From Novosphingobium decolorationis (lineage in GTDB: Bacteria; Pseudomonadota; Alphaproteobacteria; Sphingomonadales; Sphingomonadaceae), in contig NZ_CP054856.1 of the NCBI RefSeq assembly GCF_018417475.1, forward strand, positions 3,937,001-4,001,000: a stretch of DNA of 64,000 nucleotides. Direction: 5' to 3'. Made by a program: the position numbers and the translations under genes. The notes below the pieces were generated by a model. That model saw only the letters and a program-made list of their open reading frames with translations. It did no database searches and was not told the DNA's origin. Each line of letters begins with the position of its first letter. The stretch's first letter is position 1. This document shows positions 39,882 through 52,671 of this stretch, piece by piece.

Positions 39882-39917
39882 GTTCAATCTCTTGCTGACA
39901 AGAGTGTGTCATTGAAC
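39882..39917. promoter_or_regulatory. Nested dyad in the uvrB / lipoprotein divergent promoter region
   Basis: Outer arms GTTCAAT (39882-39888) and ATTGAAC (39911-39917) enclose inner arms CTCTTG (39889-39894) and CAAGAG (39899-39904). It lies 31 bp upstream of uvrB and 103 bp upstream of the divergent lipoprotein gene. The outer arms contain GTTC and GAAC, the half-site of alphaproteobacterial LexA, but in inverted rather than direct GTTC-N7-GTTC order. A regulatory role is likely; the protein is not identified. Confidence 0.45.
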
Positions 39918-40019
39918 TGTAATGGTTGGAGAGAGGTGCGCCGCGGTGCTAGCCGCGCATTCCCGTATGATGCGGGATCGGCGCGGGGCGCGGGCGTTTC
40001 GAGCGAGGAGGACAGGACG

Positions 40020-50421: not shown

Positions 50422-50439
50422 CTGTGACGATTGCGTGAC
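50422..50439. promoter_or_regulatory. PHO-box-like direct repeat upstream of the NUDIX-DUF47 gene
   Basis: CTGTGAC-GATT-GCGTGAC repeats GTGAC with an 11-bp period, the spacing of PhoB half-sites (CTGTCAT-N4-CTGTCAT). It lies about 90 bp before the GTG start. Half-site match is partial. In Sinorhizobium the DUF47-pit operon is controlled by PhoB, which gives some prior support. The segment is also partly palindromic (CTGT...ACAG), so another regulator is possible. Confidence 0.35.
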
Positions 50440-50528
50440 AGCCTGCGGGCAGGTATCGGGCGGCGGCCCCGGCCCGAATCGGCCGATCCGGGCCACCTTC
50501 CGCCAGCCCAGGAGCCAAGGGACACATT

Positions 50529-51653
50529 GTGCGTCAGATTGCCGTTCTTCCATATCGCAGCGAAAGCCCGGCGATCGACGCCCCCGTCCAGATCCTCCTC
50601 ATCACCTCGCGCGAGACACGCCGCTGGGTGATCCCCAAGGGCGGGCTGATGAAGGGCAAGAGCCCGCACGCGGCCGCCGCGCAGGAAGCCGAGGAAGAGG
50701 CCGGCGTGCTCGGCGCGGTCTGCCCCATTCCGCTCGGCTCCTTCCGCTATCGCAAGCGTCGCGCTTCGGGCGCGCGGGTCTGGGCCGATGTCGATGTCTT
50801 TCCCTTCGCCGTCACCGAGATGCTGGAGACCTGGGACGAGCAGCACCAGCGCGACCGGCGCTGGTTCTCGCTGACCGAGGCCGCCGAGGCGGTCGACGAG
50901 GAAGATCTGAGGGCGCTTATCCGCTCTTTCGGTGCGAGCGAGTTCCGCGCCGCCGCCAGCCCCGCACGGGTGTTCTCGGCCATGGCCGACAGGACAGGAG
51001 TCAATGCAATGTTCGCCTGGTTTCAGAAGCTTCTCCCCCAGCAGGGTGAGTTCTTCGACCTTTTCGAGAAGCAGGCCGCAACGCTCGTCGCGGGCGCTGA
51101 CGCGCTGGCACGCCTCGCGCAGGGCGGGCAGGGCCGCAACCAGCACATCCGCGAGATCGAGGAGCGTGAACACGACGCCGACGAGATCACCCGCGAGGTG
51201 CTCCAGTCGGTCCGCCGCACCTTCCTGACGCCCTTCGACCGCTCGGCGATCACCAGCCTTATCACCACGATGGACGATGCCATCGACGAGATGCAGCAGG
51301 TTGCGGGCGCGGTCAGCCTCTACGAGGTCGAGGAATTCGAGCCCGAGATGGTCGATATGGCCGCGATCATCGTCGATGCCGCGCGCCTTACTGCCGAGAT
51401 CATGCCGCTCCTGCGCAAGATCGCGGACAACGGCCACCGCCTGCACGAGCTGACTGAGCGCCTGGTGCGCATGGAAGGCCATGCCGATGATATCCACGCC
51501 GCGGGTCTCAAGCGCGTCTACAAGGCGAGCCAGCAGACCGAGCCGCTGCACTTCATCGTGCGCCAGGAAATGTTCAAGCGCCTCGAGCGCGTCGTCGACC
51601 GTTTCGAGGATCTCGCCAACGAGATCGACGGTCTCGTCATCGACCACGCCTGA
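50529..51653 (+). CDS. NUDIX hydrolase fused in frame to a DUF47 (PhoU-like) domain
   Basis: One 374-residue frame joins two normally separate proteins. Residues 1-150 are a NUDIX domain of the diphosphoinositol-phosphatase-like type (RRWVIPKGGLMKGKSP, then QEAEEEAGV; the usual Arg of the box is Gln). Residues 161-374 are DUF47, a PhoU-like helical regulator found with PiT transporters (MFAWFQKLLPQQGEFFDLFE). No stop separates them. An internal ATG at 51009 has ACAGGAG eight bases upstream, so a separate 214-residue DUF47 protein may also be made. GTG start; AAGGGA six bases upstream. The pit gene follows 16 bp later. Confidence 0.85.
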   Translation: MRQIAVLPYRSESPAIDAPVQILLITSRETRRWVIPKGGLMKGKSPHAAAAQEAEEEAGVLGAVCPIPLGSFRYRKRRASGARVWADVDVFPFAVTEMLETWDEQHQRDRRWFSLTEAAEAVDEEDLRALIRSFGASEFRAAASPARVFSAMADRTGVNAMFAWFQKLLPQQGEFFDLFEKQAATLVAGADALARLAQGGQGRNQHIREIEEREHDADEITREVLQSVRRTFLTPFDRSAITSLITTMDDAIDEMQQVAGAVSLYEVEEFEPEMVDMAAIIVDAARLTAEIMPLLRKIADNGHRLHELTERLVRMEGHADDIHAAGLKRVYKASQQTEPLHFIVRQEMFKRLERVVDRFEDLANEIDGLVIDHA

Positions 51654-51669: not shown

Positions 51670-52671
51670 ATGGATCACACGCTCGCCTTGCCGCTGCTGA
51701 TCGGCCTCGTCGGCCTTGCGCTGGCCTTCGACTTCCTGAACGGCCTGCACGATGCGGCCAACGCCATTGCGACCGTGGTGGCCACGCGTCTGCTTTCGCC
51801 GGTGGTCGCGGTGCTCTTCGCCGCGAGCGGCAACTTCATCGCCTACTGGTTCGTGGGTCTTCACGTTGCCGAGACGGTGGGCAAGGGCATCGTCGATGCC
51901 GACGCGATCACACCCGCGGTGGTCTTCGGGGCGCTGGTAGGGGCGATGTTCTGGAACGTCGTCACCTGGCTCAAGGGCATTCCCTCCAGCTCCAGCCATG
52001 CACTGATCGGCGGCCTTCTGGGCGCGGGCATGATGCATGGCGGCTTCGGGGTGGTCGAAAGCTCGGGAACGACCAAGACGGTTGTGGCGATCTTCCTTTC
52101 GCCGATGATCGGTTTTGTGATCGCGATGGTGCTGATGCTGCTGACCAGTTGGCTGTTCAAGGGTACCAGCCCGCGCGGTTCGACTACCGTCTTCAAGGCG
52201 CTGCACCTGTTTTCCTCGGCGGCCTATTCGATCAGCCATGGGGGCAACGACGCGCAGAAGACCATGGGCATCATCGCGGTTCTGCTCTACTCGACCGGGC
52301 ACCTTGAGGGTGGTTTCCACGTACCCGAATGGGTCGTGCTCTCCTGCTACACCGCGATTGCTCTGGGCACGCTGTCGGGGGGCTGGAAGATCATCAAGAC
52401 GATGGGCTCCAAGCTGACCAAGCTCAACCACCACTCGGGTTTCTGCGCCTCGACGGCCGGTTCCATCGTCGTCTTCGGGGCGAGCGCCATGGGCATTCCC
52501 GTCTCGACCACGCACGCCATCACCGGTTCGGTCGTGGGCACGGGCGCGGCCCGCCGCGCCAGCGCGGTGCGCTGGTCGGTCGCGAGCCGCGTGATCGTCG
52601 CCTGGTTCATCACCATTCCGGCCAGCGCCATCGTCGGGGCCATCTTCTACCTTCTCACGCGGGCCTTCTGA
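51670..52671 (+). CDS. pit: PiT-family inorganic phosphate transporter
   Basis: PiT proteins import metal-phosphate with protons. The 333 residues have about ten membrane segments and the two family signatures. The first is FDFLNGLHDAANAIATVVAT, the second SISHGGNDAQKTMGIIAVLL. GIPSSSSHALIGG and GIPVSTTHAITGS mark the inverted halves. It lies 16 bp after the NUDIX-DUF47 gene, the standard DUF47-pit pairing, in which DUF47 is thought to control uptake. Confidence 0.95.
   Translation: MDHTLALPLLIGLVGLALAFDFLNGLHDAANAIATVVATRLLSPVVAVLFAASGNFIAYWFVGLHVAETVGKGIVDADAITPAVVFGALVGAMFWNVVTWLKGIPSSSSHALIGGLLGAGMMHGGFGVVESSGTTKTVVAIFLSPMIGFVIAMVLMLLTSWLFKGTSPRGSTTVFKALHLFSSAAYSISHGGNDAQKTMGIIAVLLYSTGHLEGGFHVPEWVVLSCYTAIALGTLSGGWKIIKTMGSKLTKLNHHSGFCASTAGSIVVFGASAMGIPVSTTHAITGSVVGTGAARRASAVRWSVASRVIVAWFITIPASAIVGAIFYLLTRAF

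Follow-up and report, generated by a model that had tools for sequence, protein, structure and literature searches.

The frame that lies directly before the phosphate transporter gene pit in the DNA analysed here (a stretch of 64,000 nucleotides, called the window throughout) joins a Nudix hydrolase domain to a DUF47 regulator domain. The locus raises the questions of whether this fusion is a genuine gene, how many proteins are read from it and what a Nudix domain may do beside a phosphate importer. The coordinates of the features are collected in Table 1.

Table 1. Features of the Nudix-DUF47 locus (positions in the window)
Feature	Position	Strand	Basis or remark
Pho-box-like direct repeat	50424..50441	-	12/14 positions; ~90-105 bases before start
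Shine-Dalgarno-like AAGGGA for first start	50517..50522	+	sequence; anti-SD profile of relatives
First start codon, GTG in window	50529..50531	+	alignment; ATT/ATC/ATA/GTC/GTT in 107/157 relatives
Nudix-DUF47 frame	50529..51653	+	GTG start, TGA stop, 374 aa, open throughout
Nudix domain	50529..50978	+	Pfam PF00293 at residues 21-131; fold match to DIPP1
Linker, residues 137-172	50937..51044	+	disordered by AlphaFold2, pLDDT <50; contains internal start
Internal Shine-Dalgarno ACAGGAG	50994..51000	+	sequence, anti-SD energy, conservation in relatives
DUF47/PhoU_div part	51009..51653	+	PF01865; 214 aa if translated alone from ATG 51009 (predicted)
pit, PHO4-family inorganic phosphate transporter	51670..52671	+	Pfam E 1.2e-88; 16 bases 3' of fusion gene

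The Nudix-DUF47 frame and its distribution

The Pfam searches, the open frame and the short gap to pit bore out the preliminary description of the locus as a NUDIX domain that runs into DUF47 without a stop, directly before pit. The PF00293 match (E 1.5e-9; whole-protein score 38.4 bits) was above its cut-off of 21.1, and PF01865, PhoU_div/DUF47, matched residues 167-371 with E 1.7e-40 and 139.1 bits against a gathering cut-off of 24.4. The AlphaFold2 model of the protein had a mean pLDDT of 82.8 and a pTM of 0.56. The gene upstream of the frame is ysxC. Analysis of the window's genome revealed a single DUF47 match, which is the fusion gene itself, and 11 Nudix matches.

The full-length fusion was present in 14 of 36 other genomes of the same genus and in 69 of 77 loci from named GTDB contigs (among the best 80 of 102 matches), one of which (L099) is interrupted after 265 codons. 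Among the matches listed, the genera with the fusion were Novosphingobium, Sphingomonas, Sphingopyxis, Parasphingorhabdus, Sphingobium, Stakelama and an Altererythrobacter, and the closest named loci, with 99% protein identity, belonged to Novosphingobium sp. BW1 and N. profundi EaN21-2. In a sample of 397 family genomes, the window's own included, 121 carried the full-length fusion, 20 had DUF47 but no fused Nudix and 233 gave no match (E 0.001); fusions were recovered in relatives down to about 45% identity. One further family genome (G304) carried a frameshifted fusion (L207, G304:C3) with the break inside DUF47, which is either a pseudogene or an assembly error. Among 240 genomes sampled across the class the fusion was also found in two f46 genomes, and no independent fusion was listed beyond these two and the window's genome. 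A search of 385 class genomes with the Nudix domain alone as the query gave an f46 match, G773, which may or may not belong to a fusion.

The idea that the fusion is a sequencing artefact, produced by a lost stop, was rejected because the same fusion recurs in many assemblies. Relatives do not all carry a stop between the domains, the finding that the preliminary description had named as fatal to its claim; a split locus was found in one family genome (G189/L197), where nudix, duf47 and pit are three separate neighbouring genes and nudix and duf47 lie in different frames. Judged from this comparison, the fusion is real and old. The tree of 127 DUF47 domains showed DUF47-only genes scattered among the fused clades with 6 label changes, at least 4 of them on starred branches, in a quick SH-aLRT tree that is unrooted, has no outgroup and brings long branches together among some DUF47-only rows. 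Their placement within fused clades makes it appear likelier that the Nudix part was lost repeatedly, leaving a working DUF47 gene, than that the fusion arose repeatedly. Two loci, L100 and L208, retained a Nudix with an ATT/ATC start and had lost DUF47 after its first residues; L100 still holds the internal Shine-Dalgarno sequence (SD) and ATG as a relic.

The internal start in the linker

The preliminary description had proposed that ATG 51009, preceded by ACAGGAG, serves as a second start, and comparison with relatives strengthened this claim, since the ATG is aligned in most fusions and the SD persists through changes in the encoded residues. The ATG lies in the predicted disordered linker, and a short form read from it would contain the entire DUF47 domain. 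It was invariant in 76 distinct fusions; in a larger set the aligned residue was methionine in 137 of 157. Inspection of the other 20 loci by eye showed that seven have an ATG two codons earlier without an SD, in L189 the ATG, also two codons earlier, comes shortly after GGAAGG, seven (L182, L185, L216; L184, L193, L195, L196) have GTG at the aligned or the next codon, two (L175 and L188) have TTG at the next codon, and in three (L144, L194 and L214) the junction is free of ATG, GTG and TTG.

The mean anti-SD duplex energy before the internal ATG was -5.7 kcal/mol at -6; the 1287 further in-frame ATGs of these genes gave about -0.8 to -1.3 kcal/mol between -8 and -4. The linker amino acids vary among relatives (TGVN, SRI, KEGFR, KWGT, SGVR), and the purine tract AGG/GGA/GGGG is kept. 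In 85 of 95 thinned loci the internal SD was stronger than after random exchange of synonymous codons; the loci are related, so that such tests overstate independence and the p-value of the synonymous recoding is not to be taken literally.

These data bear on the alternative that the gene yields the fused protein alone and that the internal ATG with its SD is a by-product of the linker sequence. An SD held at a fixed spacing through changing codons, stronger than its synonymous versions and missing from the other in-frame ATGs of these genes, makes this improbable as a general explanation. It does find its best ground in eight g23 loci (L138, L141, L144, L146, L149, L150, L153 and L160) in which the internal SD is absent by eye and the fusion is kept; these are the seven loci with the earlier ATG that has no SD, together with L144, which is also without the ATG. 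The eight may yield only the fused form, and since the internal SD or the start codon is missing there, and in L194 and L214, while the fusion is kept, the short form would be dispensable in those loci. Several g23 fusions also have long open frames 5' of codon 1, with a frame of 1604 codons in G061. For the window and most of its relatives, a free DUF47 is predicted to be translated from the internal ATG in addition to the fused form, and it is plausible that the ratio of the two could matter.

The first start codon and the possible control of the long form

The window (L001) has no in-frame ATG, GTG, TTG or CTG from the upstream stop to codon 50529, which leaves GTG 50529 as the sole canonical codon at which the complete Nudix domain could start. 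Because the window uses GTG, the starts of many of its relatives could not have been foreseen from it alone. Alignment of 157 fusions revealed that codon 1 is ATT in 64, ATC in 36, ATA in 5, GTC in 1 and GTT in 1, and ATG, GTG, TTG or CTG in the remaining 50. For these counts five of the 162 extracted fusions (L111, L112, L173, L192 and L213) were omitted, their residue 1 not being aligned to model position 1; four of the five have an ATG 2-4 codons upstream, so that the omission slightly favours the non-AUG share. A pattern search in the 397 family genomes matched 73 genomes of 22 genera, largely the same genomes as in the alignment, with ATT in 38, ATC in 18, ATA in 1, GTC in 1, ATG in 12 and GTG in 3, the non-AUG codons coming from 19 genera.

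It may be argued that the AUU/AUC relatives start at another, canonical codon and that codon 1 is just an isoleucine. Such a codon (ATG, GTG or TTG) was found between -20 codons and codon 2 in 37 of the 107 non-AUG loci; a wider interval, from -20 to +6 codons, takes in the TTG of Leu7 and raises the count to 75 of 107. In 8 of the 107 a canonical codon lies 1-3 codons upstream, for example ATG-2 in L052/L053. The same wide interval, applied as a control, gave a canonical codon near the aligned beginning of pit in 87 of 87 loci and a candidate start for ysxC in 7 of 8. Against another start stand 53 of the 107 loci, here called the strict set (ATT 33, ATC 18, ATA 1, GTT 1), which have no in-frame ATG, GTG or TTG back to the stop; in three loci (L072, L091 and L167) the upstream stop is one codon before codon 1. 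CTG is absent as well from 41 of the strict set, and an in-frame CTG upstream in the other 12 leaves some room for the argument there.

The sequence around codon 1 points the same way. In the strict set the anti-SD profile is sharp, with -5.6 kcal/mol at -6, similar to that of the internal ATG, so that the SD distance fits codon 1; the 50 canonical starts showed a dip of about -4.5 kcal/mol over a broader stretch. Among 43 thinned strict loci the column identity upstream is about 0.3, apart from GGG at -12 to -10 and CC right before the codon, and it rises to 0.88, 0.95 and 0.50 at codon positions 1, 2 and 3 of codons 2-10. Since the identity jumps right after codon 1, coding appears to begin there, and since residues 3, 5, 7, 8 and 9 are nearly invariant, initiation further downstream is unlikely. 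The isoleucine codon bias is also reversed at codon 1: in the set of 76, ATT accounted for 29 of 40 Ile codons there and for 87 of the 894 at other positions of these genes. Early Ile codons are themselves ATT-rich to an intermediate degree (14 of 41 at codon 4 and 12 of 29 at about codon 35), so part of this excess may be a 5'-end effect. For the strict set a start elsewhere was rejected on the SD position and the identity jump, with the caveat of the in-frame CTG in 12, and for the AUU/AUC relatives in general we regard it as very improbable.

The two rarest codons were found in L014 (GTC) and L015 (GTT), both with good SD spacing; L015 has no in-frame ATG, GTG, TTG or CTG back to the stop, and L014 has TTG 5 and 7 codons upstream. 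The start class switches across the DUF47 tree, as in N. colocasiae L044, which has ATT among ATG relatives, and this toggling indicates that the weak start is not obligatory. Unfused sphingomonad Nudix copies start with ATC or ATT too (L208, L209, L211, L212 and L100), and L210 and L197, also unfused, have TTG just before the ATC. Because the unfused copies share the codon, it may serve a low Nudix dosage by itself, and not the ratio of long to short form.

Starts of this type recall infC, the textbook gene controlled by initiation factor IF3. In 25 of 25 sphingomonad genomes infC appeared, by eye, to start with ATA (20), ATC (4) or ATT (1) behind a GGAG-type SD (L217, at G000:C1:3676053-3676547 in the window's genome, and L218-L241). 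The Nudix-DUF47 gene and infC thus seem, from their sequences, to have the same start class in many of the same genomes. A start of the IF3-discriminated class, defined as a codon other than AUG, GUG or UUG with no such codon upstream, was found in 53 of the 157 fusions; the window has the canonical GTG and is not one of them, so strict IF3 gating does not apply to it. According to excerpts of one article (PMC5472188), IF3 autoregulation has been described, very few bacterial starts outside AUG/GUG/UUG have been characterised, the effect of infC fidelity alleles is put at 3-15-fold, and infC starts with ATT in E. coli and ATC in Streptomyces. The usual AUA of the sphingomonad infC differs from both of these reported codons (PMC5472188, in excerpt). 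The fusion differs from infC in that it is no translation factor, has no evident IF3 feedback and has a second, internal AUG start.

A second likeness is sigR/rsrA of Streptomyces, where, in the same excerpts, a weak GTC start of sigR, repressed by IF3, keeps one partner scarcer and the ribosome-binding site of the other partner lies inside the sigR coding sequence (PMC5472188); GTC in L014 and GTT in L015 are comparable. The difference is that rsrA is a separate downstream gene, whereas the second product of the fusion would be the in-frame C-terminal half of the first.

Transcription of the gene may be under phosphate control as well. With the Pho-box consensus CTGTCAY-N4-CTGTCAY, the window holds 2 matches at 12/14 in 64 kb against 0.72 expected, and 16 of 100 shuffles gave at least 2, so that the repeat before the fusion gene is not significant alone. 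The second match, with 2 mismatches, is at 39906-39923. In relatives, the 150 bases before the gene contain a match of 11/14 or better in 79 of 143 thinned loci; simple shuffling predicts 3.6, and a coding control gave 2. From this enrichment the fusion gene is probably controlled by PhoB. The repeat varies in position and orientation (47 plus, 32 minus), and for this reason it does not tell activation from repression. Strong Pho-box-like copies were also seen at the DUF47-only loci L018, L020, L198 and L200.

The Nudix domain and the Pit transporter

Of the full Nudix box, GX5EX7REUXEEXGU, the fusions conserve E53, E56, E57 and G59, and the first Glu and the Arg are mostly replaced. The metal-binding glutamates E53 and E57 are present in 157 of 157 fusions and E56 in 154, the other three having Asp; the first Glu is found in a single fusion of the 157 and the Arg in 14, and in the window their positions hold K (residue 44) and Q (residue 52). 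The best Nudix matches were DIPP1/NUDT3, whose chains came first by sequence and by fold, and yeast DDP1, in keeping with the DIPP-like domain of the preliminary description; the next folds were CT771 with Ap4A products, MutT1 and Ap4A hydrolases. The fusion shares with DIPP/NUDT3 and DDP1 the glutamates of REUxEE, and differs from them in being bacterial, in being joined to DUF47 and in the rarity of the first Glu and the Arg.

The likeness to DIPP1 had led to an analogy with eukaryotic SPX signalling, in which the Nudix domain would hydrolyse inositol pyrophosphates as a branch of phosphate signalling. Besides the best structural and sequence matches, the conserved T26-S/T27-R28 and R32-W33 agree with such a substrate. 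The excerpted text of PMC8064635 states that DDP1 cleaves inositol pyrophosphates, dinucleotides (ApnA) and polyphosphate, a point against the analogy. No member of PF03770, the only inositol kinase family searched, was found in the window's genome, and PPK1 was found there; for these two reasons ApnA or polyphosphate is more likely than an inositol pyrophosphate as the putative substrate. Inositol pyrophosphate is an unlikely substrate, and the SPX-like branch as a whole is scarcely credible. Of the earlier interpretation, the old fusion, the internal start, the DIPP-like fold and the coupling of Nudix to Pit are upheld, and the SPX/inositol-pyrophosphate analogy is not supported.

The coupling to the importer was seen in the gene neighbourhoods. 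A pit gene is present in 83 of the 84 fusion loci examined, with duplicates counted; L058 is the one without. The search of the 385 class genomes gave 57 unfused relatives of the fusion's Nudix with E up to 1e-12, of which 47 (43 genomes; L304-L349 and L300) were taken into the neighbourhood count and 10 were left out. A Pit gene lay within 1.5-2 kb on either side in 26 of these 47 loci, 6 of them also with DUF47, and in none of 20 control loci (weak Nudix matches of the same search, E 5e-5 to 1e-3), seven duplicate loci being kept out of the count. PHO4 was confirmed in 8 of 8 neighbours tested. In four genomes with two Nudix copies, one copy is beside Pit and the other is not. The arrangements vary among nudix-pit, convergent, duf47-pit-nudix, nudix-duf47-pit and divergent. 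Across the Alphaproteobacteria this Nudix subfamily adjoins Pit transporters often without DUF47 nearby. In Nudix copies from outside the sphingomonads, a canonical codon usually lies a few codons upstream.

We also considered whether the Nudix travels as a passenger with no role in phosphate control, being a promiscuous housekeeping pyrophosphatase that became joined to DUF47 when a stop was lost within an operon. Genomes with DUF47 alone occur, apparently through several separate events, the split operon of L197 and the Nudix without DUF47 in L100 and L208 show that the parts can stand separately, and no Pit gene was seen near 21 of the 47 unfused Nudix loci. Neither chance nor one old operon explains the 26 unfused loci that lie by Pit in several arrangements, and the catalytic glutamates stay invariant, so that the passenger explanation appears unlikely, though it merits consideration.

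The DUF47 half has precedents of its own. In excerpts of two articles on Staphylococcus, phoU2, alias pitR, is the DUF47 protein of the pit operon (PMC7326077), and PitR, encoded beside pitA, is an accessory regulator of phosphate homeostasis tied to PitA (PMC13170248). The fusion resembles PitR/PhoU2 in that DUF47 is encoded with a Pit transporter; the same excerpts (PMC13170248, PMC7326077) mention neither a Nudix part nor a second start for the Staphylococcus protein. The PhoU-like protein BT4638 of Bacteroides (3l39) has the same DUF47 fold, with a TM-score of 0.91 over the target and a sequence E of 7.9e-16, and its solved chain of 227 residues is without a Nudix domain. In the titles and abstract openings of the open-licence PMC literature, where absence is weak evidence, no report was found that describes a Nudix-DUF47 fusion, connects this Nudix with Pit or assigns the gene a non-AUG start.

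The fusion and its conservation, the metal ligands, the internal ATG with its SD and the non-AUG codon 1 with its SD are given by the sequences. The reading we prefer, with a probability of about 0.6, is that one frame gives two proteins and that the Nudix-bearing form is a scarce, signal-cleaving subunit on Pit with inputs from IF3 and PhoB. Both a long Nudix-DUF47 protein and a free, PitR-like DUF47 would be made, the latter from the ribosome-binding site in the linker, with pit following. By analogy to Staphylococcus, DUF47 would act with Pit as PitR does, and the Nudix-bearing subunit, by analogy to sigR, would be a minor component that assembles with abundant free DUF47. The Nudix domain would cleave a pyrophosphate-type molecule and so turn that signal into a change in Pit activity. 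In the AUU/AUC relatives IF3 discrimination, if it works as in the known cases, would keep the long form scarce and tie its amount to the supply of the initiation factor; PhoB would govern transcription through the Pho-box-like repeat.

A further reading, which we consider doubtful, takes the long form as a read-out of the supply of IF3 and free 30S subunits, so that an excess of ribosomes over IF3 resets Pit. The long form would then rise and join free DUF47, and the import of phosphate, together with metal-phosphate, would follow ribosome production. If this were true, the fusion gene and infC would form an IF3 regulon that joins translation capacity to phosphate entry, and the PhoB site on the same gene would add an input from Pi starvation.

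The family of conserved non-AUG starts, found in 19 of 96 sampled sphingomonad genera on a phosphate-transport regulator, offers a new natural system in which to test IF3-gated expression. Gene callers that accept only ATG, GTG and TTG are expected to mis-start the fusion gene in the non-AUG species. The link between this Nudix subfamily and Pit across the class points to a pyrophosphate-type signal in bacterial phosphate uptake, which is directly assayable.
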